A stretch of 64,000 nt of DNA. Origin: Acidobacteriota bacterium. Its GTDB lineage: Bacteria > Acidobacteriota > Terriglobia > Bryobacterales > Bryobacteraceae. Below the pieces are notes generated by a model that was not told where the DNA came from, did no database searches, and worked only from the letters and a program-made list of their open reading frames with translations. The DNA lies in contig JAFLBB010000019.1 of assembly GCA_017304135.1 (NCBI GenBank), positions 1-64,000 of the forward strand, read 5' to 3'. Made by a program: the position numbers and the translations under genes. Below, in pieces: positions 1-17,438 of the stretch (position 1 is its first letter; each line of letters opens with the position of its first letter).

Positions 1-396
1 GGCGGGGTGTCGCTGGGGCGGGGGTGGGGACGGCTGATTGGGTCGAACGAGCCGGGTTGGTTTGCCGAACATCACAGCGACGGGGTGTATGTGCACCGCT
101 TCAACAAAAGCCTCATCGTGTATGCGCAGAACCGGGTGGGGTACACGTTGAGGCCGGGGGGGCTGCGGGCACAGTTGACGTGGAGTGCGAATGTGACGGC
201 GGACCCGAAGGGGCAGTATTGGGCGAACTATGTGGAGACGGGGCCGGGGCTGCGGTTCCGGTGGGATTCGCTGCCGCCGCCGGTGGTGTTCACGGTGGAT
301 GTGCTGCGCGGGGCGCATACGACGAACACGGCGAATCCGCGGCGGCCGAATTACACGGATGTGAGGGTGGGGTTCTGGTATGCGATTACGCGGTAG
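1..396 (+). CDS. C-terminal part of an outer-membrane beta-barrel-like protein (truncated at window edge)
   Basis: The frame is open from the first base, so this is the 3' end of a longer gene. The GTG at base 7 is probably only an internal codon. The visible 131 residues have alternating aromatic and polar residues and the phrases IVYAQNRVGYTL and YVETGPGLRFR. The end, VGFWYAITR, is a pattern typical of C-terminal strands of Gram-negative outer-membrane barrels. The layout resembles the C-terminal domain of NfrA-like (phage N4 adsorption A) proteins found in exopolysaccharide export loci; that family assignment is inference from recall. The next gene begins 10 bases after the stop, suggesting one operon. 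Confidence 0.5.
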   Translation, partial: GGVSLGRGWGRLIGSNEPGWFAEHHSDGVYVHRFNKSLIVYAQNRVGYTLRPGGLRAQLTWSANVTADPKGQYWANYVETGPGLRFRWDSLPPPVVFTVDVLRGAHTTNTANPRRPNYTDVRVGFWYAITR

Positions 397-406
397 GGGA
401 GCGCAC

Positions 407-2473
407 GTGAAGCTGCTGGGGATGGCGATGCTGTTGGCCGTGCCGGTGTGGGGCGCGGTGAATTATTCGGTGGCGGGCGGCGATGGGGGGGCGTGGCCAA
501 GGGTGTTGGAGTCGATGGGCGTGCCGAGGGCGGCGGGCGAAGGCGAGGTGGTGGTGGTGGGCGCGGGGGCGGCGGGAGAGTGGCGGTCAAGGGTGGAGGC
601 CGGGGCGTTGGTGATTCTGGAAGGGGCGTCGGAGGCGGCGGCTGGGTTTGGGATTGTGGCGACGGGGAAGCGGGCGCAGACGCGGAGTGTGCTGGATGCG
701 GGCGCGCCGGAGTTGGACATCATTTGGGAAGAGGCGATCGAGGCGGCGGTGTTTGCGGTGCCGGAGCGGGCGCGGGTGTTTGCGCGGGAGCGGTGGAGCG
801 GCGCGCCGCTGGTGGTGGGTTGGCGGCAGGGGGCGGGGGCGGTGTTGTGGACGGCGGTGAGTCCGGGGCGGCGGGGGTATGAGCGGTTTCCGTATTTGCC
901 GCAGGCGCTGCGGGAGTTGGGGGTAACGCCGGTGGCCGAGACGCGGGCGTTGTGGGCATTTTTCGATGCGAGCTACAGGAGCCGGGTGGACCTGGATTTC
1001 TTTGCGCGGCGGTGGCGCGAGGCGGGCATCGGGGCGCTGCATGTGGCGGCGTGGCATTTCTGGGAGCCGGATGCGGAGCGGGATGCGTATCTGAAGCGAT
1101 TGATTGAGGCCTGCCACAAGCGGGCGATTCACGTGTATGCGTGGATCGAGTTTCCGCATGTGAGCCAGCGGTTTTGGGATGACCATCCGGAGTGGCGCGA
1201 GAAGACGGCGATCGGGCAGGATGCGCACCTGGACTGGCGGCGGTTGATGAACCTGCAGAATCCGGCGGCGAAGCTGGCGATTGCGGAAGGGCTGCGGGGG
1301 TTGGCGGGGCGGTTCGATTGGGATGGGATGAACCTGGCGGAGCTGTACTTTGAGTCGCTCGAGGGGTATGGGAACGCGGCGCGGTTCACGCCGATGAATG
1401 AGAATGCGCGGGCGGAGTTCACGGCGCGGCACGGGTTTGACCCGGCGGAGTTGTTTCGCGAGGGCGGGGCGCTGCACCACGCGAAGAACGGCGAGGGGAT
1501 GCGGAAGCTGCTGGAGTACCGGGCGTCGCTGGCGCACCGGATGCAGGTGGAGTGGTTGGATGAGCTGGAGCGGATTCGCGCCGGGAAGCCGCATCTGGAC
1601 CTGGTGTTGACGCATGTGGACGACCGGTTCGATACGCGGATGCGGGATTTGATCGGGGCCGATGCGGAGCGGTTGCTGCCGGTGTTGGAGCGGCGCGAGG
1701 CGACGTTTTTGATTGAAGATCCGGCGACGGTGTGGAACCTGGGGCCGGAGCGGTATCCGGAGATTGCGCGGCGGTACGGGCCGATCACGGAGCGGCCGGA
1801 GAAGCTGGCCATTGATATCAACATTGTGGAGCGGTATCAGGATGTGTATCCGACGAAGAAACAAACCGGCGGGGAATTGTTTCAACTGGTGCACCTGGCG
1901 GCGGGGGCGTTTGAGAGAGTTGCCTTGTATTTCGAGAGTTCGCTCGTGGGGCGTGATTTGCCGTTGCTGGCGGCCTCGGGGGCGCGCGTGGTGAGCGCGG
2001 AGCGGGGGGCGGCAGCGGCGGGGAACGAGGCGCAGGCGGCGGTGAAAACGGTGGCCTGGGCGGGACGAGCGGAGGGGCCGGCGGCGGGGGAGCGGTTGAC
2101 GGTGGAGGTGCGGGGGGCGCATGCGGTGCGTTGGACGGGGGCGGCAAGGGTGGATGGGCGGGTGTGGCCTGTGGCGGGGGGCGGCGTGGTGCGGGTGCCT
2201 TCGGGGAGGCACACGGTGGAGGCGTCGGCGGTGAAGCCGCCACTGTCGGTGGTGGATGTGAGCGCGGAGTTAACGAGCGCGAGCGTGGAGGGCGAGGTGG
2301 TGGAGATTGGCTATGAGGCGCAGGCGCGGGCGTGGGTGGTGGTGGACCGCAAGCCGGCGCGGGTGGAGGTGGATGGGGCGGCGCATGAGGCGCGCGCGGT
2401 TGCGCTGGGCGAGGGAGCGTGGTTGTTGGAGCTGCCGCGCGGGCAGCATGTGGCAGCGCTGTTTGCGCGCTGA
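407..2473 (+). CDS. Secreted TIM-barrel, glycoside-hydrolase-like protein
   Basis: A protein of about 688 residues starting at GTG 407, which has AGGGGAG just upstream and begins a clear signal peptide (MKLLGMAMLLAVPVWG). An in-frame ATG at 380 would overlap the upstream gene and add a charged tail before the signal, so I prefer 407. The central region from about residue 190 to 510 has TIM-barrel features (WAFFDASYRSRVDLDFF, IHVYAWIEFP, FDWDGMNLAELYFE) like family-10-type or PgaB-like hydrolases. The last 150 residues look like small beta domains. No catalytic pair can be named with certainty. Its place after a barrel C-terminus and before a PEP-CTERM gene suggests a role in polysaccharide processing (inference). 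The plus strand is extremely G-rich here. Confidence 0.6.
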   Translation: MKLLGMAMLLAVPVWGAVNYSVAGGDGGAWPRVLESMGVPRAAGEGEVVVVGAGAAGEWRSRVEAGALVILEGASEAAAGFGIVATGKRAQTRSVLDAGAPELDIIWEEAIEAAVFAVPERARVFARERWSGAPLVVGWRQGAGAVLWTAVSPGRRGYERFPYLPQALRELGVTPVAETRALWAFFDASYRSRVDLDFFARRWREAGIGALHVAAWHFWEPDAERDAYLKRLIEACHKRAIHVYAWIEFPHVSQRFWDDHPEWREKTAIGQDAHLDWRRLMNLQNPAAKLAIAEGLRGLAGRFDWDGMNLAELYFESLEGYGNAARFTPMNENARAEFTARHGFDPAELFREGGALHHAKNGEGMRKLLEYRASLAHRMQVEWLDELERIRAGKPHLDLVLTHVDDRFDTRMRDLIGADAERLLPVLERREATFLIEDPATVWNLGPERYPEIARRYGPITERPEKLAIDINIVERYQDVYPTKKQTGGELFQLVHLAAGAFERVALYFESSLVGRDLPLLAASGARVVSAERGAAAAGNEAQAAVKTVAWAGRAEGPAAGERLTVEVRGAHAVRWTGAARVDGRVWPVAGGGVVRVPSGRHTVEASAVKPPLSVVDVSAELTSASVEGEVVEIGYEAQARAWVVVDRKPARVEVDGAAHEARAVALGEGAWLLELPRGQHVAALFAR

Positions 2474-2480
2474 ATTCCCC

Positions 2481-2509
2481 TTGACCCGGGGGAGCGGCGG
2501 GCGCATACT
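2481..2509 (+). promoter_or_regulatory. Predicted sigma70-type promoter of the PEP-CTERM gene
   Basis: TTGACC at 2481-2486 is followed after 17 bases by CATACT at 2504-2509, giving a start about 25 bases before the TTG start codon. Four of six bases match at the -10. The -35 also lies inside a short CCCC/GGGG inverted repeat after the upstream stop. Confidence 0.45.
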
Positions 2510-2541
2510 CGCGTCGCATTGGCTCTCGACAAGGAGGTATC

Positions 2542-3189
2542 TTGAGACGCTTTGCTTTGTCGTTTTTAATCCTTACTAATTTGGTTGGGGCCGAGGTGAT
2601 TTCCAGCTATACGAGCGGACCGAATCTCACTCTTGGGACCTACGGGCGGGGACAGTCCGTGCTGACGCCCGCGGGCGGGCCGTGGACGAACATCACGTTC
2701 TGCTTCACAACCAGTGACACGGACTACTCCGGCAATCCGGCGGAACCCCGGTGTTGGGCGAATTTCGAGAACGATCCCCGCTACCCTGAGTGGTCTCCTG
2801 GACAGCTCTTCGTGCTTACCGAGGAATACCTCGGTGACATGTGGGGCCTTTCGCCGGCAACTCCCGGCTACCTGGGTGTCTCTTCCACGATGGTGGACGA
2901 GCGCTGGATTTTCGGCAGTGAGCTGAGATTGGACCCGCTCACCTTGTACTACTTCTACTCCGACACCATAGTGAGTGCCCTGGAAGGCGGAGGTCCGACG
3001 ATGGGGTATGCCACGTATGGCGGGGAGAACCTCGGGAATTGCTCGGAGTCTCTGGGGTGCCTCTTTCAGCCGCAGGGAACGAACAATTACCAGTTGACGG
3101 GGCTGGCGATTCCGGAGCCTGCGACAGGGTGGCTGCTGGGGGCGGGATGCCTGGCGCTGCTGGGGCTGCGTGGGCGGATCGGGCGATGA
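2542..3189 (+). CDS. PEP-CTERM sorting-domain protein
   Basis: A secreted protein of 215 residues. The start is TTG with a very strong Shine-Dalgarno (AAGGAGG, 2531-2537). Residues 1-17 are a signal peptide. The body is rich in G, S, T, N and Y with two likely disulphide-type cysteine pairs and no recognised catalytic motif. The end is a textbook PEP-CTERM tripartite signal: PEPATGW, a hydrophobic stretch, then an arginine-rich tail (LRGRIGR). Such proteins are processed by exosortase in bacteria that make exopolysaccharide, which fits the upstream genes; no exosortase is in the window. Codon use is less G-biased than in the preceding gene, and the gene sits between a full-length and a decayed copy of that gene's 3' end. 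Confidence 0.88.
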   Translation: MRRFALSFLILTNLVGAEVISSYTSGPNLTLGTYGRGQSVLTPAGGPWTNITFCFTTSDTDYSGNPAEPRCWANFENDPRYPEWSPGQLFVLTEEYLGDMWGLSPATPGYLGVSSTMVDERWIFGSELRLDPLTLYYFYSDTIVSALEGGGPTMGYATYGGENLGNCSESLGCLFQPQGTNNYQLTGLAIPEPATGWLLGAGCLALLGLRGRIGR

Positions 3190-3267
3190 GGTTCCCTTCG
3201 TCCGTTGTGACGAGAGGGTAATGGAAGCGGCGACGATGGGGTTCCGCTGGTGACGACGGTGGCGGCA

Positions 3268-3414
3268 GATGTGTGCGCGGATTCGACGAACGCGCTTGAG
3301 GAGGGCGAAGTGGCGGAGATTGGCTGCGGGGCGTATCCCGTTGCGCTGGGCGAGGGAACGTGGTTGTCGAAGCTGCCATGCGCGCAGCATGTAGGGGCAG
3401 TGTATGCGCGCTGA
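3268..3414 (+). pseudogene. Decayed duplicate of the 3' end of the 407-2473 gene
   Basis: The 48 codons before the TGA at 3412-3414 match the last 72 codons of the upstream gene (2255-2473) in the same order: DVSAELTSASVEGEVVEIG against DVCADSTNALEEGEVAEIG, then VALGEGAWLLELP against VALGEGTWLSKLP, ending QHVAALFAR against QHVGAVYAR. The copy lacks about 24 residues in the middle but keeps the frame and the stop. Weaker similarity may extend left to about 3240. There is no start codon with a ribosome site, so this is a gene remnant. Confidence 0.75.
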
Positions 3415-3439
3415 CAATTGCGGCGGGAGGCCGGGACGC

Positions 3440-3445
3440 TATAAT
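3440..3445 (+). promoter_or_regulatory. Perfect -10 box before the 3467 kinase gene
   Basis: TATAAT lies 21 bases before the ATG at 3467. TTGCGG at 3418-3423 is a weak -35 at 16 bases spacing. It shows that the in-frame start at 3404 would lie upstream of the promoter, so translation most likely begins at 3467. Confidence 0.5.
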
Positions 3446-3466
3446 GTCGGGACTGTTGCTGTTGTC

Positions 3467-4162
3467 ATGAATGAAGTACACACTGGGCCTGAAGTTTCGA
3501 CCGATCCCTCACAAGTTCGAGCAGAGTTTGAGATCACCGAAGTGGTGCGCCAACTGTCGCATGAGCTGCGCCAGCCGTTGAGCACGATGGAGTCGGTGGC
3601 CTATTATCTGTCGATGGTGGTGCCGGGGCACGACCTGCGCGTGAGGCAGCAGGTGGAGAAGATGCAGCGGCTGGTGGAGCAGATGAACTGGGTGCTGGCC
3701 GACGCGGTGCACTTCTTTCAAGCGACGCCGCCGAACCCGCAACGGGTGGATTTGAACGAGCTGATCACGGAGGCGGTGAGCGGGGAGCAGGGCGGGAAGC
3801 AACCGGTGCAGGTGAACTTGAGCGAGCGCCCGGCGCTGGTGGAGATGGACCCGCTACAGGCGCGGCATTGCGTGCAGAGCCTGATTGGGCTGGTGCGGAA
3901 GTGGGCGCACGGCGAGGTGCGGGTGAGCACGCAGTTTGTGGGCAGCGAGGTGCATGTGCGGGTGTCGGCGCCGCAGTTGCGGATTCAGAGTGCGGATGCG
4001 TCGCTGATCTTTGAGCCGTTCCGGCCGCATGCGCCGGCGGGGACGGGGTTGGCGTTTGCGAGCGTGCGGCGGATTGCGGAGGCCAGCGGCGGGCGGGCGG
4101 GGGTGGAGTTGAGCGAGCCGCGCGGGGTGACGGTGTCGGTGGAATTGCCGCGGTTGGCGTAG
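3467..4162 (+). CDS. Small histidine-kinase-like protein with a degenerate ATPase domain
   Basis: A soluble protein of 231 residues with no membrane segment or sensor domain. Residues 25-45 contain an H box (LSHELRQPLSTMES, His32), followed by a dimerisation helix pair. The C-terminal HATPase-like region keeps a G2-like loop (GTGLAFASVRRI) and the phrase LIFEPF. It lacks a recognisable N-box asparagine (QARHCVQSLIG at that position) and the D-x-G-x-G G1 box. It may therefore bind ATP poorly and act as a phosphotransfer or regulatory partner rather than a normal kinase (inference). No response regulator is adjacent. The start at ATG 3467 is chosen because it lies just downstream of a TATAAT. 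Confidence 0.7.
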   Translation: MNEVHTGPEVSTDPSQVRAEFEITEVVRQLSHELRQPLSTMESVAYYLSMVVPGHDLRVRQQVEKMQRLVEQMNWVLADAVHFFQATPPNPQRVDLNELITEAVSGEQGGKQPVQVNLSERPALVEMDPLQARHCVQSLIGLVRKWAHGEVRVSTQFVGSEVHVRVSAPQLRIQSADASLIFEPFRPHAPAGTGLAFASVRRIAEASGGRAGVELSEPRGVTVSVELPRLA

Positions 4163-4182: not shown

Positions 4183-4692
4183 ATGCCGATGAAACGTACG
4201 CGGGAAGAGATGATCGCCGAGTTCCACCGGCTCTACACGATCTTCGAAACCATCGAGGACTGCCTTCACAACCAGGACGGCGCTTACTGGACGACCGGGT
4301 TCGGCCGCCTGGTCCGCAGCCGCGCTGCGCAGCTTGAGCGCGTGGTGAAGGGAGAGTTCCCGCCCGGCGAGATCGTCCTGGGCACGCTTCAGGCAATCAA
4401 CGATACCTCGGCTGAACTGGTCAGCCAGCTCAGGGACGACCCCGCGAAAGCCGAGCAGGCCCTTGCCGCCTACCGGGAGCGGACGGGCCGCGACTACTGG
4501 CAGGACGCAAAACCGCCGAAGGCGCTGATCAAGGTGATCCTGAAACGCGGCCGGCTGCTGGATGAGGCCGAGGGCCGGCTGCTTGACGGCTGGCTTGCCG
4601 AGGCGACGGGTCGGGGGAAACCCGCCGAGATGACCTTGGCCAAGGACATTCTGGCACGCTTCCGCGAGGCCGCAGAACCGGGGCGAGGATGA
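4183..4692 (+). CDS. Hypothetical protein, 169 residues
   Basis: I do not recognise this gene. It encodes a mostly helical, soluble, charged protein without signal peptide or membrane segment. Possible starts are ATG 4183 or ATG 4189, with AGGG just before. Base use differs from both neighbours: codons end mainly in C and the sense strand is not G-skewed, while flanking genes make the plus strand strongly G-rich. This suggests acquisition from elsewhere (inference). The following 174 bases to 4866 hold no convincing gene. Confidence 0.6.
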   Translation: MPMKRTREEMIAEFHRLYTIFETIEDCLHNQDGAYWTTGFGRLVRSRAAQLERVVKGEFPPGEIVLGTLQAINDTSAELVSQLRDDPAKAEQALAAYRERTGRDYWQDAKPPKALIKVILKRGRLLDEAEGRLLDGWLAEATGRGKPAEMTLAKDILARFREAAEPGRG

Positions 4693-4866
4693 CCTGAAGG
4701 CTGGTCGTCCTTGCGGGGAGGCAACACACCAACCGCGTTACGCCTGGCCCCTCTCACGCGCGGGCCAATGCTGACGATCCAGCCTTGAGGCGTGGCAGTG
4801 GGAAGGGTGTAGATGCGAGACGCTCGCTGAGCGCACGTCAGGCCGGGTGTGGCTGAGAACTGCAGG

Positions 4867-6873
4867 TCAGCGAAGCACCTGGAGGAGGTTGTTGTAGTCG
4901 TCGGTCCAGGGGCGGTGCGTGGAGGCGAAGAGGGTGCGGGCAGTGGCGCGGAGGGCTGGGCGGGAGAAGACCTCTTCGTCGCGGGAGAGAAGGACCCATT
5001 CGGAAGGAGATTGCAGCGGGTCGCCGCTGCGCGGGTCGGCGATGAGGCGGGAGTGGAGGCCGAGGGTGCGGCCGACGCCTTCGACGACGGGGGCGAGGCG
5101 GAGGTGGAGGTTGGAGACGTGCATGGCGAGGATGCCGCCGGGCTGAAGGTGGGTGAGGTAGAGCTGAAGCGCTTCGCGGGAGAGCAGGTGGACGGGGATG
5201 GAGTCGCCGGAGAAGGCGTCGACGACGAGCAGGTCGAACTGGTTGGGGCGTTCGCGTTCGAGGGCCATACGGCCGTCGCCGAGGACGATGTCGTAGGGGG
5301 CGGGGCAATCGGCGAGGAAGCGGAAGCGTGTGCGGGCGTAGTCGACGACGAGGGGGTTGATTTCGTAGAAACGGAGCGCATCATCCGGTTTGGCGTAGGC
5401 GGCCAGAACGCCGACACCGAGGCCGATGAGGCCGATGCGGCGGCTGGGGCTATCGAGGCTGGCGAGGGCGAGGGCGGCGCCGGAGTGGGCCGTGTAGTAA
5501 GCGGTGGTGTCCCGGGGGTGGTTCACATACTGCGAGCCGTGGTTGACCGAGCCGTGAACGAGAGTGAGGGCGGGGCCGCGCGGGGTTTCCGAAGGGGCGA
5601 CGCGGAGGACACCGTAAAAGTTGCGGCCTGAGGCGAGGGCGCTGCCTTCGAAGCTGAGGATGGTGGCTCCGGCGCCGACGACGGCGGCAATGGCGACTCC
5701 GGTGTAGGCGAGATCGGTGACGATGTGTTTGCGGTATTCCAGGAAGAGGAGCGTGAAGGCGCAGAGAGCGAGGGCAAGGGGGAGTTCGAAGTAGCCGCGG
5801 AGGAGGCGCGGGGCGAGCATGCCGACGGCGAGAGAGCCGAGAGCGCCACCGAGGGAGATCATCAGGTAGAAGTAGGTGAGGTGCGCGGGGGCGGGCTTGC
5901 GTGCGGCGAGTTGCCCGTGGCAGTACATACAGGCGGCGAAGAGTCCGGAGAGGAAGAGGGGGATGGCGGCGCGGACGGGGAGTTGGGCTTGCAGTTCGGC
6001 CCAGGAGAGGGCGGCGAGGGCGGCGGCGGCGAGGAAGGTCCAGAGGGGCCAGCGGTGGAGGCGTTCGCTGTCAAAACAGAGGATGAACGTGGCGAGGTAG
6101 AGGACAAGGGGGAGGAGCCAGAGGAAGGGGATGGCGGCGACGTTCTGGCAGAGGTGATTGGTGACGGCGAGGAGGAGGGCCGAGGGGAGGGCGGAGAGGA
6201 GGAGCCATTGGAGGCGGTCGCGCCAGGGGGGAGCGGAAGAGCGCTGGGAGTTGGCGGCGGGGGCGGCGGAGGTGGAGAGGGAGGCTTGGCCGAGCCAGGC
6301 GGTGAGGGAGAGGGCGAGGGCGCAGAGGATGTAGAGGGCGGTCCAGAGGGTGGCCTGTTCGCGGGCAGTGGAGCGGGGTTCGATGAGAACGGGGTAGGCG
6401 AGCAGGGCGGCGAGCGAGGCGAGGTTGGAGAGAGCGAAGAGGCGGTACGGGAGGGCTCCGCCTTCGCGGCGGGCGTACCAGGATTGGACCAGCGGGCTGG
6501 TGGCGGAGAGCAGGAAGTAAGGGCCGCCGATGGAGGCGACGAGGAGGCCAAGGATGCGGGTGAGAGGGTCTTCCGCGCCGGCGGGTTTCCAGGAGGCGTT
6601 GGGGAGGATGGGGAGGGCGAGGAGGCTGAGTGCAAGGAGCGCGGAGTGGACGAGGGCCTGGCGGCGGGGGGAGAGATAGCGGGCCAGCAGGTGGGCGTAG
6701 CCGTATCCGGCGAGGAGCATGCCCTGGAAGAAGAAGATGCAGACCGACCAGACGGCGGCGGTTCCGCCGAACCAGGGGAGGATGAGCTTGGCCAGGACTG
6801 GCTGAACGGAGAAGAGGAGCAGGGCGCTGAGGGTGACCGAGAAGGCGCAGAGCCAGACGTACGGGATGGGCAT
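4867..6873 (-). CDS. Fused MFS/spermidine-synthase-type membrane protein (second module, own start)
   Basis: From the internal ATG at 6873 (AGG a few bases upstream) this would be a protein of 668 residues. The first 400 residues hold about ten membrane segments beginning LLLFSVQPVLAKLILPWFGG, a signature of the family annotated as fused MFS/spermidine synthase. The rest is a soluble Rossmann methyltransferase-like domain related to spermidine synthases: IGLIGLGVGVLAAYAKP, then YEINPLVV, DGRMALE and LLVVDAFSGDSIP. Family members are widespread in Acidobacteria, and their substrate is largely unknown. A cytoplasmic catalytic domain attached to a Tat-exported oxidoreductase would be topologically odd, another reason to treat this as a separate protein. 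Confidence 0.8.
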   Translation of the reverse strand: MPIPYVWLCAFSVTLSALLLFSVQPVLAKLILPWFGGTAAVWSVCIFFFQGMLLAGYGYAHLLARYLSPRRQALVHSALLALSLLALPILPNASWKPAGAEDPLTRILGLLVASIGGPYFLLSATSPLVQSWYARREGGALPYRLFALSNLASLAALLAYPVLIEPRSTAREQATLWTALYILCALALSLTAWLGQASLSTSAAPAANSQRSSAPPWRDRLQWLLLSALPSALLLAVTNHLCQNVAAIPFLWLLPLVLYLATFILCFDSERLHRWPLWTFLAAAALAALSWAELQAQLPVRAAIPLFLSGLFAACMYCHGQLAARKPAPAHLTYFYLMISLGGALGSLAVGMLAPRLLRGYFELPLALALCAFTLLFLEYRKHIVTDLAYTGVAIAAVVGAGATILSFEGSALASGRNFYGVLRVAPSETPRGPALTLVHGSVNHGSQYVNHPRDTTAYYTAHSGAALALASLDSPSRRIGLIGLGVGVLAAYAKPDDALRFYEINPLVVDYARTRFRFLADCPAPYDIVLGDGRMALERERPNQFDLLVVDAFSGDSIPVHLLSREALQLYLTHLQPGGILAMHVSNLHLRLAPVVEGVGRTLGLHSRLIADPRSGDPLQSPSEWVLLSRDEEVFSRPALRATARTLFASTHRPWTDDYNNLLQVLR

Positions 6874-8229
6874 CCTGATCGGTTCATCGGCTGCCGGCGG
6901 GGGGTGCAATAGGGGGGAAGCCGCCCTTGGTGCGGGCGGCCTCCGGTAGTCGCGGGTGAGCATTTTGTTGGCGTCGGAATCGCCGATGAACTGTTCCTTG
7001 GCGACGTCCCAGCGGAGCTGGCGGCCGGTGCGGTAGGCGATGTTGGCCATGTGGCAGAGGGCGGCGGAGTTGGCGCCGATTTCGATTTCGGCGTTGATCG
7101 ACTTGTAGTCGCGCGATTTGACGGCGGCGAGGAAGTTGGCCATGTGGAGGGCGGTGGTGTCGGCGCCGCCACGCTCGCGCTTCTTCTCCATGACGACGGC
7201 GCGGTCTTCGCCTTTGTAGACGCGGTAGTAGGAGTCTTCGACTTCGAGGACGCCATCCGAGCCGAGGAAGAGATTGCCGACGACGTTGCCCTTGCCCGTC
7301 ATGCCGGATTCGCCGTTGGTGAGGATGCCGCGGACCTCAAAGACGATCTGTTTGTCGCCGTAGTCGAAGGTGGCGAGCTGGGTGTTGGGGGTCTCCTGGT
7401 CGTCGACGTAGGCGAACTTGCCGCCAGTGCAGTAGATGGATTTCAGGCCTTCGTGGCGGTTGTCGGGGAGTCCGAGGCCCCAGCGGGCGATGTCCATTTC
7501 GTGGACGCCCTGGTTGCCGATGTCGCCGTTGCCGGTGTCCCAGAACCAGTGCCAGTTGTATTTGAAGCGGTTCTTGGTGAAGGGGCGCATGGGGGCGGGG
7601 CCGAGGAAGATGTCCCAGTTGACGCCGGGCGGGACGGGTTCGGCGGGGGTGACGCCGATGGACTTGCGGCGCTTGAAGCAGAGGGCTTTGGCGAGGTAGA
7701 CCTTGCCGATGACGCCTTCCTGGAGGAGCTTCATGGCCTCCATCTTGAGGGGTGTGGAGCGGGACTGGGAGCCGACCTGCATCATGCGCTTGTACTTGCG
7801 CGCGGCGGCGACCATCTGGTGGCCTTCGAAGATGTTGTGGCTGGCGGGCTTTTCAACGTATACGTCCTTGCCGGCCTGGGCGGCCCAGATGGCCGAGAGG
7901 GCGTGCCAGTGGTTGGGGGTGGCGATGGAGACGGCGTCGATGTTCTTGTCGTCGAACATCTTGCGCATGTCTTCGAACTCAGCGGCCTTGGGACGTTCGG
8001 CCTTGGAAAGGGAGCCCTGGGCGACTTCGCGGGCGGCCTGGTTGACGTCGCAGAGGCCGGTGATGGCGGCGTTGGGGAGCGAGAGGTAGCCGCGGAGGTG
8101 AGCGGTGCCGCGTCCGCCAAGGCCGATGATGCCGACGTTGACACGATCATTGGCGCCGAGGATGGGGCGGGCCTGGGTGGCGATGGCGGCGGCTGAGGCG
8201 AATTGGACGAAGGTTCTGCGATTGGTCAC
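4867..8229 (-). CDS. Gfo/Idh/MocA oxidoreductase reading in frame into an MFS/spermidine-synthase protein
   Basis: One uninterrupted frame of 1120 codons. Residues 1-28 carry a twin-arginine signal (NRRTFVQFASAAA). Residues 29-430 are a complete Gfo/Idh/MocA oxidoreductase: Rossmann motif VGIIGLGGRG, the EKPASHN lysine motif, and the long substrate domain with GNGDIGNQGVHEMDIARW. Such exported sugar oxidoreductases normally end soon after a motif like LTRDYRRP, seen here at about residue 427-434. Here the stop is missing, and a proline/alanine stretch leads into ATG 6873, the natural start of the second protein. A 7-bp GC hairpin (6920-6940) sits in the junction. This could be a real fusion, a lost stop codon or a sequencing slip; I favour two genes joined by stop loss. 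Confidence 0.75.
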   Translation of the reverse strand: MTNRRTFVQFASAAAIATQARPILGANDRVNVGIIGLGGRGTAHLRGYLSLPNAAITGLCDVNQAAREVAQGSLSKAERPKAAEFEDMRKMFDDKNIDAVSIATPNHWHALSAIWAAQAGKDVYVEKPASHNIFEGHQMVAAARKYKRMMQVGSQSRSTPLKMEAMKLLQEGVIGKVYLAKALCFKRRKSIGVTPAEPVPPGVNWDIFLGPAPMRPFTKNRFKYNWHWFWDTGNGDIGNQGVHEMDIARWGLGLPDNRHEGLKSIYCTGGKFAYVDDQETPNTQLATFDYGDKQIVFEVRGILTNGESGMTGKGNVVGNLFLGSDGVLEVEDSYYRVYKGEDRAVVMEKKRERGGADTTALHMANFLAAVKSRDYKSINAEIEIGANSAALCHMANIAYRTGRQLRWDVAKEQFIGDSDANKMLTRDYRRPPAPRAASPLLHPPPAADEPIRMPIPYVWLCAFSVTLSALLLFSVQPVLAKLILPWFGGTAAVWSVCIFFFQGMLLAGYGYAHLLARYLSPRRQALVHSALLALSLLALPILPNASWKPAGAEDPLTRILGLLVASIGGPYFLLSATSPLVQSWYARREGGALPYRLFALSNLASLAALLAYPVLIEPRSTAREQATLWTALYILCALALSLTAWLGQASLSTSAAPAANSQRSSAPPWRDRLQWLLLSALPSALLLAVTNHLCQNVAAIPFLWLLPLVLYLATFILCFDSERLHRWPLWTFLAAAALAALSWAELQAQLPVRAAIPLFLSGLFAACMYCHGQLAARKPAPAHLTYFYLMISLGGALGSLAVGMLAPRLLRGYFELPLALALCAFTLLFLEYRKHIVTDLAYTGVAIAAVVGAGATILSFEGSALASGRNFYGVLRVAPSETPRGPALTLVHGSVNHGSQYVNHPRDTTAYYTAHSGAALALASLDSPSRRIGLIGLGVGVLAAYAKPDDALRFYEINPLVVDYARTRFRFLADCPAPYDIVLGDGRMALERERPNQFDLLVVDAFSGDSIPVHLLSREALQLYLTHLQPGGILAMHVSNLHLRLAPVVEGVGRTLGLHSRLIADPRSGDPLQSPSEWVLLSRDEEVFSRPALRATARTLFASTHRPWTDDYNNLLQVLR
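6920..6940 (-). terminator. GC hairpin at the oxidoreductase/MFS junction
   Basis: GCCGCCC, a 7-base loop and GGGCGGC form a perfect 7-bp stem directly after the oxidoreductase's C-terminal motif. On the minus strand it is followed by a C-rich, not a T-rich, tract, so it is at best a weak terminator. Its place suggests this was once intergenic sequence. Confidence 0.35.
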
Positions 8230-8257
8230 TTGGGGGACTCCTTAGTGGATTCCCCCT

Positions 8258-8263
8258 TATAAT
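8258..8263 (+). promoter_or_regulatory. Perfect -10 box before the DUF1549/DUF1553 operon
   Basis: TATAAT ends 12 bases before the ATG at 8276, so the transcript would have a leader of only a few bases. No clear -35 is visible. The oxidoreductase gene at 8229 is divergent from the same 46-base gap. Confidence 0.5.
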
Positions 8264-8275
8264 AATGGCAATCGC

Positions 8276-10441
8276 ATGAGGCTGCTCAAACCGCTGGTAC
8301 CGCTGCTGGGAATGGTCTGTCTGGCGGCGACGCTGGACAAGGACGATGCCTGGGTTGCGCCCCGGAAGAACTACTGGGCGTTCAAGGCACCGGTGCGGGC
8401 CGAGGCGCCGGTATTTGACGATGCGGCGGGGAAGGCGTGGGTGAAGACGCCGGTGGATGCGTTTGTGCTGGAGGCGCTGCGGGCGAAGGGGCTGGAGCCA
8501 TCGCAGCCGCTGGAAAAAGCTAAGTTACTGCGGCGGGTGACGCTGGATTTGACAGGGTTGCCGCCGACGCCGGAAGATTTGGATGCGTTTCTCAAGGACA
8601 CCAAGCCGGGGGCGTATGAGCGCGTGGTGGAGCGGCTGCTGGCCTCACCGCGGTATGCCGAGCGTTGGGCGACGAAGTGGCTGGACGTGGTGCGGTATGC
8701 GGATACGAACGGCTATGAGCTGGACGCCGAGCGGACTCATGCGTGGCGGTACCGGGATTATGTGATCCGGGCGTTTCAGACGGACAAACCGTATGACAGG
8801 TTTGTAATGGAGCAGATCGCCGGCGATGAGCTATGGCCGGGGGACAAGGACGCGCTGGTGGCGACGGGCTTTCACCGCGCCGGGCCGATTCACCTGGTGG
8901 GCGGCAACCAGGATGAGGAGATGAACCGTCAGGAGGTGTTGACGGAGATGACCGGGGCGCTGGGGAATGTGTTCCTGGGCATGTCGGTGGGGTGCGCGCG
9001 TTGCCATAACCACAAGTTCGATCCGATTCCGCAGGCGGATTACTACAAGCTGCAGGCGGTGTTGGCGGCGACGGAGTTTGACGAGATCAGTATTGCGTCG
9101 AAGGAAGAACATGCGAAGTACGATGCGGCGGTGATGGCGCATGCGGAGAGAGTGAAGCCGGTGAAGGAGGCGATTGCGGCGATTGAGAAGCCGTATCGCG
9201 AGCGGTTGAAGGCGGAGAAGAAGGCGAAGTTGGGGGCGGAGTTTGTGGCGGCGCTGGAAGTTGCGAAAGACAAGCGCAACGAGGAACAGGAGCGGCTGGC
9301 CAAGGAGGCGAACGCGCAGTTGAGCGTGAGTTGGGATGAGGTGCTGGCCGTGCTGACGCCGGAGGACAGGGCGACGCGAGCGGGATGGCGGAAGAAGCTG
9401 CACGCGCTGGAGCGCGAGGAGCCGGAGCCGCCGGCGCATGCGTATGCGGTGAAGAATGCGGCGATGGCGCCGGTGTCGTTCGTGCTCAAGGTCGGCGACT
9501 ACAAGATGAAGCAGCAGCCGGTGTTGCCGGGCTTCCTGCGCGTGGTGAATGACGCCGGGGCGCCGGTGGAGCCTGTGGGAAGGCGGTCAGCGCTGGCGAA
9601 GTGGCTGGTGAGCGAGGAGAATCCGCTGGCGGCGCGGGTGATGGTGAATCGCATCTGGCAGGCGCGGATGGGCGTGGGGATTGTGGCTACACCGAACGAT
9701 TTTGGCGTGTTGGGGCAGCGGCCGTCGAACCAGAAGCTGTTGGACTGGCTGGCGACTGAGTTTGTGGCGAAAGGCTGGAGCGTGCGGACGATGGACCGGA
9801 TGCTGGTGACGTCGAGCGTGTACCGGCAGGCGACGGCGCATGATGCAAAGAAGGCGGAGGTGGATCCGCAGAACAAGCTGATGTGGCGGATGAACCGGCG
9901 GCGGCTCGACGCGGAGTTCCTGCGCGATGGGGCGCTGGCGGTGGCGGGCGTGTTGAACACGCGGATGTTCGGCCGGCCGATGAAGGTGCCGATTGAGCCG
10001 GAGGTCTACGACCTGATTTTCACGGAAGGCGAGCCGGATAACTTGTGGCCGGTGGAGTTGGAGGAGAAGGATCATTTCCGGCGGAGTTTGTATCTGCTGA
10101 ACAAGCGGACGGTGCGGCTGCCGATGATGGCGAATTTCGACCAGCCGGATGCGATGACGTCGTGCCCGGTGAGGCCGGTGAGCACGCATGCGCTGCAGGC
10201 GCTGTCGCTGTTGAACAGTGACACGATGCGCGGGGCGGGGCGGCAGTTGGCGGCGCGGCTGGAGAAGGAGTGCGGCGGCGATGCGGCGTGCCGGGTGAGG
10301 CGGGCGTATGTGCTGGCGCTGGCGCGCGAGCCGGAGGCGGCGGAGTTGGAGGAGGCGCGGGCGTTTGTTGGCGGCGGCGGGGCGTGGGAAGATTTCGCGC
10401 TGGCGATGGTGAACCGGAATGAGTTTGTGTATGTGCCGTAA
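8276..10441 (+). CDS. DUF1549/DUF1553 (PSCyt2/PSD1) domain-containing protein
   Basis: A protein of 721 residues with an N-terminal signal peptide. The DUF1549 region (about 45-250) contains LLRRVTLDLTGLPPTPEDL and the haem-like motif CARCHNH (Cys240, Cys243, His244). A central charged helical insert (290-370) separates it from DUF1553 (about 430-690), which contains MVNRIWQARMG and FDQPDAMTSCPVRP. The family is abundant in Planctomycetes and Acidobacteria, usually next to DUF1501 genes as here (12-base gap). It is thought to act in the periplasm in polymer breakdown or electron transfer, but no reaction is proven. It is the first gene of a plus-strand run up to 13581. Confidence 0.92.
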   Translation: MRLLKPLVPLLGMVCLAATLDKDDAWVAPRKNYWAFKAPVRAEAPVFDDAAGKAWVKTPVDAFVLEALRAKGLEPSQPLEKAKLLRRVTLDLTGLPPTPEDLDAFLKDTKPGAYERVVERLLASPRYAERWATKWLDVVRYADTNGYELDAERTHAWRYRDYVIRAFQTDKPYDRFVMEQIAGDELWPGDKDALVATGFHRAGPIHLVGGNQDEEMNRQEVLTEMTGALGNVFLGMSVGCARCHNHKFDPIPQADYYKLQAVLAATEFDEISIASKEEHAKYDAAVMAHAERVKPVKEAIAAIEKPYRERLKAEKKAKLGAEFVAALEVAKDKRNEEQERLAKEANAQLSVSWDEVLAVLTPEDRATRAGWRKKLHALEREEPEPPAHAYAVKNAAMAPVSFVLKVGDYKMKQQPVLPGFLRVVNDAGAPVEPVGRRSALAKWLVSEENPLAARVMVNRIWQARMGVGIVATPNDFGVLGQRPSNQKLLDWLATEFVAKGWSVRTMDRMLVTSSVYRQATAHDAKKAEVDPQNKLMWRMNRRRLDAEFLRDGALAVAGVLNTRMFGRPMKVPIEPEVYDLIFTEGEPDNLWPVELEEKDHFRRSLYLLNKRTVRLPMMANFDQPDAMTSCPVRPVSTHALQALSLLNSDTMRGAGRQLAARLEKECGGDAACRVRRAYVLALAREPEAAELEEARAFVGGGGAWEDFALAMVNRNEFVYVP

Positions 10442-10453
10442 GGGGGCGTAGCG

Positions 10454-11872
10454 ATGGACAAGGGTTGCGGACGGAACACGACGCGGCGGGATGTTTTGCG
10501 CACGGCGGCGCATGGTTTCGGAGCGATTGCTCTTGAATCGCTGCTGGCGCGGGAGGGCTTCGCGGCAACGAAGGGGAATCCGCTGGCGGCCAAGCCGGCG
10601 CATCTGCCGTCGAAGGTAAAGTCGGTGATCTTCCTGTTCATGGTGGGAGCGCCGAGCCAGATTGACACGTTTGACCCGAAGCCGGAGCTGCAGAAGTTTC
10701 AGGGGCAGCGGCTGCCGGAGAGCTTTGGGAAGATTGTGAGCCAGTTCACCGACGGTTCGACGCCGATTCTGGCCTCGCCGTGGGAGTTCAAACAACACGG
10801 GCAGAGCGGGGCGTGGGTGAGCACGCTGATGCCGCACCTGGCCAAGCGCGTGGACGACATCTGCTTCGTGCGGAACTTCTTTACGGAAAGCGTCGTGCAT
10901 GCTCCGGCGATGTACCAGGTGATGTCGGGGCGCATCCTGATGGGCTATCCGAGCGTGGGTTCGTGGGTGACGTACGGGCTGGGTTCATTGAGTGAGAACC
11001 TGCCGGCGTATGTGGTGATGCCGCAACCGGAGGGGACGCCGGAGGGCGGGACGCCGATGTGGGGTTCGGGCTTCTTGCCGGCGGTGTATCAGGGGAATTT
11101 GTTCCGTCCGGGGGCGAATCCGATTCTGCATTTGAAGTCGCCCGAGGGCGTGACGGTGGAGCGGCAGCGGCGGACACTCGATCTGCTGCAGAAGATGAAC
11201 GAGCACGACGCACCGCAAGAGGACGAGGAGATGGCGGCGCGGATTGCGAGCTATGAGCTGGCGTTCCGCATGCAGGCCCATGCACCGGAGGCGGTGGATC
11301 TGACCAAGGAGAGCCCGGCGACGCGGAAGATGTATGGACTGGAGGACAAGCGGACGGCGGAGTTTGGCACGCGCTGTTTGCTGGCGCGGCGGTTGGTGGA
11401 GCGCGGTGTGCGGTTCGTGCAGTTGTATTCGGGCGGCGGCCCGGTGAGCATTCAGTGGGATGCGCACAGCCACATTGTGGAGAACCACGAGAAGATGTGC
11501 GGGCTGACGGACCAGCCGATTGCGGCGCTGCTCGAGGATTTGAAGTCGCGCGGGTTGCTCGATTCGACGCTGGTGATTTGGGGGAGCGAGTTCGGGCGGC
11601 TGCCGATGTCGCAGAGCGGGAACGGGCGCGACCACAATCCGCACGGGTTCACGATGTGGTTCGCGGGCGGCGGCGTGAAGGGCGGGCAGACGATCGGGGC
11701 AACCGATGAGTTCGGGCTGCGGGCGATCGACGGCTATCACATGCGCGATTTCCACGCGACCATCTTGCAGGCCTGCGGACTGGAGCAGAACCGGCTGTGG
11801 TATCTGCACAACGGGCGGCAGGAGAAGCTCACCGATTTTGGCGGCAAAGTGATCCAACAGGTGTTCGGGTAA
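10454..11872 (+). CDS. DUF1501 domain-containing exported protein
   Basis: A protein of 472 residues with a twin-arginine signal ([15 protein letters not shown]). The fold is alkaline-phosphatase/sulfatase-like. Visible family hallmarks are [18 protein letters not shown] near the N-terminus, [18 protein letters not shown] and WDAHSHI in the middle, and [12 protein letters not shown] with GRDHNPHGF near the C-terminus, which supply likely metal ligands. It directly follows the DUF1549/DUF1553 gene, the standard pairing. The two products are probably exported by different routes (Sec and Tat) and work together outside the cytoplasm; this is inference. The following gene starts 6 bases after its stop. 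Confidence 0.92.
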
Positions 11873-11878
11873 ACGGCG

Positions 11879-12571
11879 ATGCTGGCGCTGCTGCTGCTGG
11901 CTTCGACGACGTTGACGGGGGAGATGTGGGAGCGGGCGCGCCCCGTGCATGAGAAGACGCTGGAGCATCCGTTCTTGCAGGGGCTCACCGACGGGAGCCT
12001 GCCGAGAGACAAATTTCAGTTCTATTTGGAGCAGGACGCGGAGTATCTGCGGGTGTTCGGGCAGGCTCTGAGCGTGCTGGCGTCGAAGGCGCCGCGCGAG
12101 GAGTGGGCGCGGACGCTGAACCGGCATGCGGTGGATGCAATCGAGGTGGAGCGCGCGTTACATGAAACCATCCTGGGGAAGTTCGGCGTCCAACGGAGTG
12201 GCGCGGTGCGCGCCGTGATGGCTCCGACGAACGCGGCCTACACGAATCACCTGCTGGTGACGGTGGAGCGCGGGACGTTTGCCGAGGGCCTGGCGGCGAT
12301 GCTGCCGTGTTACTGGATTTATTGGGAAGTGGGCAAGGTGTTGGAGAAACGGGGCTCGAAGAACCGCGAGTACCAGCAGTGGATCGATCAGTATGCGAGC
12401 GCGGAGTATGGCAAGACGGTGCGTGAGGTGCTGGCGATGATGGACGCGATGGCGGGCGAGATGACGGCGGCGCAGCGGGAGCGTTGCGTGGCGTTGTTTA
12501 CGCTGGGGGCGCGGTATGAGTGGATGTTCTGGGACATGGCGTGGAGGAAGGAAGAGTGGCCGCCGCGATGA
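11879..12571 (+). CDS. TenA/thiaminase II family protein with an N-terminal hydrophobic leader
   Basis: A protein of 230 residues with the complete TenA fold. Catalytic positions known in TenA are present: Asp53 (LEQDAEYL), Cys144 (MLPCYWIYWEV) and a C-terminal Glu in RYEWMFWDMAW. TenA enzymes hydrolyse aminopyrimidines or thiamin for thiamin salvage and are normally cytoplasmic, starting near the EHPF motif. Here the first 14 residues (MLALLLLASTTLTG) are a hydrophobic leader, which suggests export, although an alternative ATG at 11923 would remove it. No thiamin gene or TPP riboswitch is nearby; the neighbours are exported proteins. The stop overlaps the next start (ATGA). Confidence 0.85.
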   Translation: MLALLLLASTTLTGEMWERARPVHEKTLEHPFLQGLTDGSLPRDKFQFYLEQDAEYLRVFGQALSVLASKAPREEWARTLNRHAVDAIEVERALHETILGKFGVQRSGAVRAVMAPTNAAYTNHLLVTVERGTFAEGLAAMLPCYWIYWEVGKVLEKRGSKNREYQQWIDQYASAEYGKTVREVLAMMDAMAGEMTAAQRERCVALFTLGARYEWMFWDMAWRKEEWPPR

Positions 12572-13581
12572 AGTGGATGAGCGGGTTGGCGCTGGCGACG
12601 GCGATGGGCTTGGCGCTGTTGGCCCAGGAGCCGGAGGCGGAGGGTCCGCCGAAGCTGAAGCGGGGGGTGCCGAAGCAGGGGGCGGGTGAGCAGAGCACGA
12701 CGGCGCGGCCGGAGATGACGCCGTCGACGGGGCCGGCGGTGTACAAGGAAATCGTGACCGACGCCGAGGGGCGGGTGGTGGAGGAGAAAGCGGGAGCGGC
12801 GGGTCCGAAATTGGACCCGGTGATTGAGAAGGCGCGCCAGGTGGCGTTTGACTGGGTGGATTCGCTGCCGAACTTCTTCTGCCAGCAGATCACCTACCGC
12901 TTCCAGAGCGACACGAAGCCGGCGGACTTCAAGATGAAGGACCGGGTGACGGCGGAGCTGGCGCATGAGGGAGCGAAGGACGAGTTCCGGAATTTGGAGA
13001 TCAACGGGAAGAAGTTGAAGAAGGGCTCGCCCGAGGAGTCGGGCACGTGGAGCGTGGGCGAGTTTGGTTCGATGGCGGCGGATGTGTTGAATCCGGCGTC
13101 GGGGACGAAGTTTGAGAAGCGGGGTTCGGAGACGGTGGGGTCGCGGATGGCGAAGTGGTACGACTACACGGTGGAGCAGGCGAATTCGCATTGGAAGGTG
13201 ACGTTCGAGGGGCAGACGATCTATCCGGCATACAAGGGCTCGATTTGGATTGACGAGGAGACGCACCGGGTGTTGCGGCTGGAGATGCAGGGGCGGCTGT
13301 TGCCGGCGGACTATCCGATGGACAAGGTAGAGATGATGGTGGAGTACGGGAAGGTGAAGATCGGGCAGCGGGAGCATTTGATGCCGGTGAAGAGCGGGAG
13401 CCTGGGGTGCAAGCGGGGGACGCTGATTTGCGTGAACAACCAGACGGAGTATCGGAACTACCGGCAGTTTGCGAGCGAATCGACGATCATGACGACGGAG
13501 TCGACGGTGACGTTTGAGGGGACGGAGGAGGAGGGGAAGAAGGCGGGGGAGGAGGAGAAGAAGGGGAAGGGGAAGAAGTAG
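12568..13581 (+). CDS. Secreted hypothetical protein
   Basis: A protein of 337 residues. I choose ATG 12568 because it overlaps the TenA stop as ATGA and starts a signal peptide (MKWMSGLALATAMGLALLA); a longer in-frame start at 12520 is unlikely. After a low-complexity proline/lysine segment, residues from about 85 form a beta-rich domain beginning VAFDWVDSLPNFFCQQITYR. Such a LPNF-C-Q phrase is common in acidobacterial secreted proteins of unknown function. Two cysteines near SLGCKRGTLICVNN may pair. The end is a Glu/Lys/Gly-rich tail. It is the last gene of the run and faces hicA tail to tail, 8 bases away. Confidence 0.7.
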   Translation: MKWMSGLALATAMGLALLAQEPEAEGPPKLKRGVPKQGAGEQSTTARPEMTPSTGPAVYKEIVTDAEGRVVEEKAGAAGPKLDPVIEKARQVAFDWVDSLPNFFCQQITYRFQSDTKPADFKMKDRVTAELAHEGAKDEFRNLEINGKKLKKGSPEESGTWSVGEFGSMAADVLNPASGTKFEKRGSETVGSRMAKWYDYTVEQANSHWKVTFEGQTIYPAYKGSIWIDEETHRVLRLEMQGRLLPADYPMDKVEMMVEYGKVKIGQREHLMPVKSGSLGCKRGTLICVNNQTEYRNYRQFASESTIMTTESTVTFEGTEEEGKKAGEEEKKGKGKK

Positions 13582-15061: not shown

Positions 15062-15178
15062 GGTGGGAGGACGCCTTCTGAACCTGCACTCAGAATACCG
15101 CAGGGCTGGCGTGGGGCCGCCGTGGGGCCAAACTCGCGCTGCCGTTCTCCCTCGCCATGCCCTACACTGGTTAACCGG

Positions 15179-16891
15179 ATGAGCGTAGGCATACAACATC
15201 TCCACACCTACTTTCTCTTCCCGTTTTCGATCGACAAGCAGGCGGTGTCGCAGGATCACCCGGAGGTGTTCGGCAAGTACCACTACTGGATCGATGCGCT
15301 GGATGAGTGGCTGATGGTGCATCAGAGCGCGGGGTGCAGCGGGATCACGGACAAGCTGGGGACGTGGCGGCGGACGGCGTACACGCGGTTCGACATGGAT
15401 GCGCAGGCCTACCAGGACATGGTGTTTTTCCATCCCTACGTGCGGCGGGTGTTTTTCGATGCAAGGGATGAGAACCCGGACAACGACGACACGGAATCGC
15501 TGCTGCGGTGCTACACGATGCGGCCGCCTGCGGGGTCGCGGCTGTACTTTGAGGCGGGCGATGGGAAGGGGCGGTCAGCGAAGTGCGAGGCGACGGACCT
15601 GCGGCTGTTCCTGATGGCCAACGGCATTGGGATTCTGTCGATCGGGGTGGAGGGATTCGACCTGACGGCGAAGGAAGCGCTGTGGATCAACGAGGCCATG
15701 CGCAAGGTGTATCCGTCGAGCGGGCGGCAGGTGCGGGAGTCGCGGGTGCCGAACCGGGCGGCGTTCACGCTGGAGACCAATGGCGTTTCGGTGACGCTGG
15801 CGGAGGAGACGTTTCAGACGGGGGAGATGCACGGGTTTCTGCCGCCGTTGTCGCGATTGATCACGTCGCTGCTTTACTTCGCCGATTACGAGGAGCAGGA
15901 GTTGGAGCCGGTGTTGGATGAGCGGATGATCGTGTACACGTATTGCGCGATCGATCCCAAGTCAGTGCCGGAGGATTTCATTGAGACGCGCGATTACCAG
16001 GTGTTCCTGAGCCGGCTGCTCTACGTGGACCGCTATGGCGAGGATTACCGCTACGACGAGGCCTTCACGCGGCAGCAGATGACGCGGCAGCTCTACCGGC
16101 GGTGGAGCCACCAGGGGACGTATTACGGGTTCACGAGCTATTCGAACGTGACGTGCACGGTGGGGGCGTTCGATTGCGATGAGCACGAACTGCGCGAGGG
16201 CTTCCTGGTTCACCGCATGTTCAACACGCGGTATTACCTGATGGCGATGGTGGCGCTGTTTTACCGGGCGACGCTGCTTGATTTCGCCGAACGGACGGCG
16301 CTGGTGTCGCGGCAGTTGTTCAAGGACATGGAGGACGGACGCCTGGCGACGGAGAACGTGCGGCTGACGGCGGACCTGCGGGCGGAGTTCCTGCATTTTT
16401 CCAACTACTGGTATTTCGAGGAGCTGGCGAATAAGGACGAGGAGATTGAGCACTTCACGCTACATAGCCGGGAGTACCGCGTGGAGCAGATGAAGAAGGA
16501 GATCGAGGAAGAGATCGACAAGCTGAACGAGAGCCTGCACAACCACTACCAGTTCCGGAACACGGAAGCGGTGAACCGGTTGGCGATGCTGAGCTTGATT
16601 CTGGGCGCGGGGGCGGTGGCGACGGGGTTCTTTGGGATGAACTTCCAGGGGCAGTTTGAGCAGTGGTTCTTTCTGCCGGCGGCGGGGGGCGGGCTGCTGC
16701 ACAACGGGGCGATCGCGGCGGTGGCGCTGCTGGGGTTGGGGGCGATCGGGTTTGGGGCGTTCATGATTGTGTCGAACTGGGGGGATTACCGGGAGTCGCT
16801 GTTGCCGCGGTGGTGGCTGCAGCGGGGGCTGGCGACGCAGCGCAGTTTGCGGCGGGGCGGGCCGGGGGTGTTGCCGCCGCCGAAGGGGTGA
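15179..16891 (+). CDS. CorA-like divalent-cation transporter with a divergent cytoplasmic domain
   Basis: A protein of 570 residues. ATG 15179 is chosen because a -10-like TACACT lies 10 bases upstream and the longer frame to 14990 runs antisense over the antitoxin-like gene. The final 130 residues resemble CorA: a long charged helix (KEIEEEIDKLNES), then EAVNRLAMLSLILGAGAVA and the signature GMN (GFFGMNF), followed by a second membrane helix and a basic tail. The first 400 residues do not show the usual CorA N-terminal sequence and are much longer than in CorA (about 316 residues in total). Magnesium or other divalent-ion passage is likely by family; regulation may be different. Confidence 0.75.
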   Translation: MSVGIQHLHTYFLFPFSIDKQAVSQDHPEVFGKYHYWIDALDEWLMVHQSAGCSGITDKLGTWRRTAYTRFDMDAQAYQDMVFFHPYVRRVFFDARDENPDNDDTESLLRCYTMRPPAGSRLYFEAGDGKGRSAKCEATDLRLFLMANGIGILSIGVEGFDLTAKEALWINEAMRKVYPSSGRQVRESRVPNRAAFTLETNGVSVTLAEETFQTGEMHGFLPPLSRLITSLLYFADYEEQELEPVLDERMIVYTYCAIDPKSVPEDFIETRDYQVFLSRLLYVDRYGEDYRYDEAFTRQQMTRQLYRRWSHQGTYYGFTSYSNVTCTVGAFDCDEHELREGFLVHRMFNTRYYLMAMVALFYRATLLDFAERTALVSRQLFKDMEDGRLATENVRLTADLRAEFLHFSNYWYFEELANKDEEIEHFTLHSREYRVEQMKKEIEEEIDKLNESLHNHYQFRNTEAVNRLAMLSLILGAGAVATGFFGMNFQGQFEQWFFLPAAGGGLLHNGAIAAVALLGLGAIGFGAFMIVSNWGDYRESLLPRWWLQRGLATQRSLRRGGPGVLPPPKG

Positions 16892-16961
16892 GGGTGGGCG
16901 TGAGCCGGACGGAGGTGAGTCCGCGCGTGATTGGGTGACCGCCTTCGCGCGGAGATCCCCT

Positions 16962-17438
16962 ATGACACGAGTGAAAAGAATTGTGATTGCTCTTGCCCTG
17001 CCCTTGCTGGCGCAAGCCGCCGGGGCGGAGGCGGATTGGAACCGCGTGGAACGGCTGCGGCCGGGGCAGAACATTGAGGTTGTCGATGACAAGATGCGAA
17101 CGCACCGTGGGGAGTTTGGCGCGGCGGGGGCGGAGGAGTTGTCGCTGCAGACGGCGAACGGTCCGCTGGTTGTGAAGCGCGAGGCGGTGATGCGGGTGAC
17201 GGTGCGGGAAAATTCAAAGCGGACGCGGAATGCGTTGATTGGGGCGGCCGTTGGCGGCGGGGTGGGTTTGGTGGTGGGGGCGACTGTGGACAAGCGGTTT
17301 TCCAACGAAGGCGGGGCGGGCGTGGGGTATGCCATCAGCGCGCCGCTGGGGGCGGGGCTGGGCGCGGCGCTGGGAGCGGCCTCGCATGGGTTTGAGACCG
17401 TTTACCGGGCCGAGCGGACCGCCGGAGGCAGGAAGTAG
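16962..17438 (+). CDS. Secreted glycine-zipper-type hypothetical protein
   Basis: A protein of 158 residues from ATG 16962 (GGAGA upstream). A signal peptide ends near AQAAGAEA. Residues 25-85 resemble a small beta-barrel domain (RLRPGQNIEVVDDKMRTHRG) seen in many acidobacterial exported proteins. The second half contains glycine-rich hydrophobic stretches (IGAAVGGGVGLVVGATV; PLGAGLGAALGAAS) that may insert into or lie against a membrane. No enzyme motif. It follows the CorA-like gene on the same strand with a 70-base gap. Confidence 0.7.
   Translation: MTRVKRIVIALALPLLAQAAGAEADWNRVERLRPGQNIEVVDDKMRTHRGEFGAAGAEELSLQTANGPLVVKREAVMRVTVRENSKRTRNALIGAAVGGGVGLVVGATVDKRFSNEGGAGVGYAISAPLGAGLGAALGAASHGFETVYRAERTAGGRK

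Follow-up and report, generated by a model that had tools for sequence, protein, structure and literature searches.

A merged Gfo/Idh/MocA and MFS/spermidine-synthase reading frame at a probable rearrangement breakpoint in an Acidobacteriota genome

In the window, the 64-kb stretch of an Acidobacteriota draft genome analysed here, a Gfo/Idh/MocA-family oxidoreductase and a membrane protein of the MFS/spermidine-synthase type occupy one uninterrupted minus-strand frame (4867-8229) of 1120 codons, which opens with a GTG at 8229 and closes with a stop at 4867. The reading that we favour, with moderate confidence, is that of a species-specific accidental merger at a rearrangement breakpoint, without conserved function. 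A rearrangement in this species would have brought the MFS/spermidine-synthase gene up to the 3′ end of the Gfo/Idh gene, and its breakpoint would have cut off the last few Gfo/Idh codons together with the stop; the once non-coding DNA before the second ATG, 21 codons long, would then happen to be stop-free and in frame, so that two genes would be read as one. Mergers of open reading frames at rearrangement breakpoints are a known accidental event, and they share with the window the loss of a stop and tail at the point where homology to relatives ends. Three points of this reading are inferred: the join exists in the DNA, it arose recently, and a 1120-residue product, if there is one, is a by-product with no selected function.

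Results

The two halves of the merged frame

The first-pass annotation had reported the two proteins in a single stop-less frame, and reading the 1120 codons, together with matches to PF01408 and NF037959, bears this out (Table 1). The N-terminus, MTNRRTFVQFASAAAIATQA (MTNRRTFVQF...), is a predicted twin-arginine leader, recognized by eye from the translation; such a leader is common to the exported Gfo/Idh/MocA members and the window protein, and we take it to parallel that of the Zymomonas glucose-fructose oxidoreductase. The Rossmann domain PF01408 is matched at residues 30-153 with 80.8 bits against a cut-off of 24, which places this half in the Gfo/Idh/MocA family, while the equivalog cut-off of NF058561 (BT_2158 glycoside 3-dehydrogenase) was missed, at 149.8 versus 750 bits. 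Among solved structures, 8tdf and 8tdh were the best sequence matches for this part. Residues 1-431 are 83-84% identical to the same-genus orthologues (L009 and L010), and an AAGGAG, read from the sequence, precedes the start.

Against the two relatives (G001 and G002), dN/dS of the Gfo part was estimated at 0.153 and 0.169, and between G001 and G002 at 0.073, indicating that it is under purifying selection and was a working gene until recently. The values, about twice that of the G001-G002 pair, could hint at relaxation, but the doubling is common to the neighbouring DUF1501 gene (0.070 and 0.070 against the relatives, 0.033 between them), so there is no clear sign of Gfo decay. The PSD1 neighbour gave 0.160 and 0.145 against the relatives and 0.105 between them.

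The second half matches NF037959 (fused MFS/spermidine synthase) at residues 758-1046 with 62.8 bits, above the subfamily cut-off of 40, and both folds are present in the window protein. The structure model of this half, with a pLDDT of 86.7, was built from an alignment (A2) of 39 sequences, namely the window half and 38 of 40 spermidine-synthase references, to which it is 42-50% identical; a mixed full-length alignment (A1) of 18 of 82 Gfo and 22 of the 40 spermidine-synthase references was set aside because the halves were mis-aligned. In the model, approximately residues 1-384 superpose on the MFS transporters 9w1r (Z 21.2, rmsd 4.6, 353 aligned) and 9ll0 (Z 20.9, rmsd 4.8, 356 aligned), and residues 412-660 on the spermidine synthase 3gjy (Z 22.7, rmsd 3.2, 239 aligned). 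Twelve MFS helices are modelled, with a further hydrophobic helix (384-411) between the MFS part and the enzyme domain; given a cytoplasmic N-terminus, this helix might place the spermidine-synthase-like domain outside the cytoplasm. The ATG at 6871-6873 (residue 453) is the likely start of the second protein, in agreement with the natural ATG proposed earlier, and its position fits the N-termini of homologues. As judged from sequence, both halves appear intact save for the lost tail of the Gfo/Idh protein. A second NF037959-type copy, 48% identical, lies on another contig (C259) of the same genome.

Table 1. Features of the merged frame and its surroundings (window coordinates unless a locus is given)
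Feature	Position	Strand	Remarks
Gfo/Idh/MocA-family oxidoreductase with predicted twin-arginine leader, without C-terminal tail and stop	6937..8229	-	residues 1-431; PF01408
Linker PAPRAASPLLHPPPAADEPIR, probably former non-coding DNA	6874..6936	-	21 codons, residues 432-452; without homology
Fused MFS/spermidine-synthase-like membrane protein	4867..6873	-	668 residues, residues 453-1120; NF037959
Hairpin, 11-nt arms (10/11 paired), 7-nt loop	6916..6944	-	arms 6916-6926 / 6934-6944
Block collinear with both same-genus genomes	6938..13578	+	left edge is the junction; DNA comparison
BsuPI / aldo/keto reductase / hydrolase genes that neighbour Gfo in the relatives	L147:1406-4269 (contig C5 of this genome, G000)		neighbourhood split over two contigs here

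The missing end of the Gfo/Idh/MocA gene

The last conserved residue of the first half is Pro431 (6937-6939), in the motif ..TRDYRRP. Comparison of the junction in relatives, a check proposed in the first-pass annotation, drew on 87 distinct matches to Gfo/Idh at E <= 1e-60, window included (those that shared their last 300 bases entered as one, nothing was removed on the basis of coverage, and weaker paralogues were left out). A stop lies 3-10 codons past the Pro431 equivalent in 86/86 of the other matches, and all 86 have an aromatic residue immediately or one residue after that position (a pattern finds 80, and inspection by eye the other six), the tails including YVV, YVVPEKV and YVVEKV. 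The window protein differs from these close homologues in having neither the tail nor the stop. Thus the usual C-terminal motif, previously described as present, is retained in its first half (..TRDYRRP), and the YVV or YVVEKV-type tail is gone. In the same-genus orthologues the gene ends with YVVEKV and a stop, followed by a hairpin, seen by eye (TTTT accompanies it in L009, TTT in L010), and then by a gene that runs convergently on the opposite strand.

It had also been suggested that correction of a base error might restore a stop. A homologue-type tail was sought in the three frames of the junction and was absent from all of them, so that no single-base change accounts for the loss of tail and stop; a single-base or frameshift error at the junction is thereby rejected, and it is at this point too that DNA homology to the relatives ends. 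The data are better explained by a breakpoint, a deletion or a misjoin than by a point change.

Gene order around the junction

On the Gfo side, positions 6938-13578 are collinear with contig C41 of G002 (82%) and positions 6944-13581 with contig C83 of G001 (81%), DNA homology stopping at 6938 and 6944, respectively. The next genes in both relatives encode a BsuPI-domain protein, an aldo/keto reductase and a 3-keto-disaccharide hydrolase (PF06439). Here those genes are found on contig C5 from base 1402, where they adjoin a BsuPI-domain paralogue and what we read as an incomplete sulfatase-like frame; for that 1.4 kb of C5 the DNA matches in G001 and G002 are all short, about 100 bases at most. 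The ancestral neighbours stand beside other DNA on C5, so the loss of the former adjacency is visible on a second contig as well. Taken together, the end of homology, the lost tail and the position of the neighbours on C5 indicate that the junction is most likely a rearrangement breakpoint.

On the other side, positions 1-4151 match contigs C70 of G002 and C39 of G001 piecewise. Both flanks therefore have same-genus relatives, with no sign of a join to foreign DNA, and a contaminant left flank is unsupported. Four regions of the window (1-4151, 6938-13578, 15155-17411 and 18984 onward) match separate places in the relatives. The region 18984-40000 is collinear with both relatives, small gaps aside, so the disorder does not extend along the whole contig.

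Between 13578 and 18984 there are more breaks of homology order with respect to both same-genus genomes. On C5, the two BsuPI-domain genes stand in tandem (L147:469-2443), and their predicted frames (469-1461 and 1406-2443) share 56 bases. Contigs C5 and C309 have 110 end bases in common, whereas the contig of the window, compared over its first 400 bases, matched no other contig of the genome; contig-end overlap thus gives no firm clue to the method of assembly.

Linker and hairpin

The filler between the two proteins, put at about 18 codons in the first-pass annotation, counts 21, and no equivalent of residues 432-452 was found in the homologues. Its GC3 is 0.67, compared with 0.89 and 0.87 in the two flanking coding parts, as expected for former non-coding DNA, albeit over few (21) codons. 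The proposal of an old intergenic origin for the filler, with a true fusion unlikely, accords with homologues that stop just past the junction and with the lack of a full-length match in the other genomes searched. The probability that 21 codons are free of stops is 0.59 at the base composition of the window and 0.76 at that of the linker; an in-frame merger after loss of the stop is therefore not improbable. The 151-base junction has no second significant copy in the genome (best other E 0.07), leaving a repeat-mediated join unsupported.

A GC hairpin had been placed at the join with a 7-bp stem; there is a hairpin at this site, but it is of a different size (Table 1). Its left arm takes in the last conserved Gfo coding bases, and the structure spans into the linker. 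It has a stability z of -3.4 and exceeds 199 of 200 shuffles (1/200 as stable). Hairpins that pass a similar criterion occur at eight start positions in the 64-kb window, presumably including this one, so that the junction hairpin is uncommon, not unique. No T run lies downstream of it and the terminator scan made no call there; as the scan likewise misses the hairpins of the same-genus orthologues, this negative result is uninformative. The hairpin may be a relic terminator, or it may have aided the break.

Search for the fusion elsewhere

The full-length frame was compared with 237 genomes of the family and 396 sampled from the phylum (overlapping samples), with scoring of the top two or three candidates from each; a fusion should rank among these. 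No full-length 1120-residue match (E <= 1e-200) was found in the 236 other family genomes or the 395 other phylum genomes, and a conserved fusion is accordingly rejected for the genomes searched. The same-genus genomes in the family search match residues 1-432 and 2-432 only. The spermidine-synthase half was matched at E <= 1e-80 in 224 of the 237 family genomes. When both genes were sought within the flanks of the first 128 loci (E <= 1e-15), they occurred together only in L001 and L099, both of which are the window. Across the genomes and loci searched, the window copy alone of the NF037959 family was found with an in-frame oxidoreductase upstream. Open frames ahead of this gene are common in themselves: at least 21 in-frame stop-free codons lie upstream in 17 of 41 distinct other spermidine-synthase homologues (one reaching the contig end), which makes open continuity weak evidence of fusion.

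Discussion

A breakpoint that trims a stop codon can mimic a multi-domain fusion in a draft genome, and an annotation pipeline is likely to log the merged frame as a new 1120-residue architecture. If the join is true, it would be a fresh case of a fusion gene born by way of a non-coding linker; if it is false, it is a useful warning for annotation.

The main rival to a breakpoint merger is a local assembly fault, by which the join at about 6937 would be a misassembly or a consensus deletion and the living cell would keep a normal Gfo/Idh tail and stop. We regard this as possible, if doubtful. The source assembly is a draft of 353 contigs with 2.25% contamination, the tail absent here is present in every one of the 86 other matches, and four window regions correspond to different locations in the relatives. 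Such a fault could likewise look like this, a break that falls barely within a gene and coincides with a strong hairpin, and the evidence from C5 lies only 1.4 kb from a contig end, which weakens the case for a breakpoint merger. Set against a fault are the second contig, C5, on which the ancestral neighbour likewise no longer adjoins the Gfo gene, the same-genus relatives of both flanks in place of foreign DNA, and the collinearity of 18984-40000 apart from small gaps.

The remaining alternatives accept the join and differ as to the product. A newborn fusion confined to this species, with a formerly exported sugar-type oxidoreductase covalently tethered through a linker of intergenic DNA to an MFS/aminopropyltransferase membrane protein and either retained in the cytoplasm or imposing a new membrane topology, seems to us quite improbable. 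A genuine selected fusion, tethering the oxidoreductase to a membrane transporter/enzyme, is very improbable: the frame is open throughout, its halves look intact save for the lost tail and the Gfo part is constrained, but a full-length match appears in no other of the 237 family or 396 phylum genomes, and stop-free frames upstream of the spermidine-synthase gene are frequent (17/41), including three that run antisense to a Gfo gene. The membrane also stands against it. MFS proteins begin in the cytoplasm, so a Tat-exported N-terminal partner would come to lie on the wrong side, the leader and the MFS N-terminus requiring, on the model, opposite sides; the earlier judgement that the topology is unlikely is supported by an MFS fold that starts right at the N-terminus of the second half. 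The least probable reading is a real join that yields two proteins, the spermidine-synthase protein initiated at an ATG of its own (6873), with the Gfo part as a minor or unstable read-through product. That ATG fits the homologue N-termini, some of which, by eye, also lack a clear ribosome site, and the hairpin could limit read-through. However, no good Shine-Dalgarno sequence precedes 6873 (an AGG abuts the ATG), whereas the Gfo start has its AAGGAG, and a scan for promoters of the sigma-70 type gave no match in 4600-8400.

The long upstream frames at five other spermidine-synthase loci (L154-L158) were considered as fusions and rejected, L154 and L158 having no Gfo match and L155-L157 a Gfo gene on the opposite strand. 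In L155, L156 and L157, all of genus g48, the spermidine-synthase gene stands beside a different and more distant Gfo gene (31-33%), located upstream, and its frame is open upstream for 439, 385 and 222 codons, respectively, antisense over that gene.
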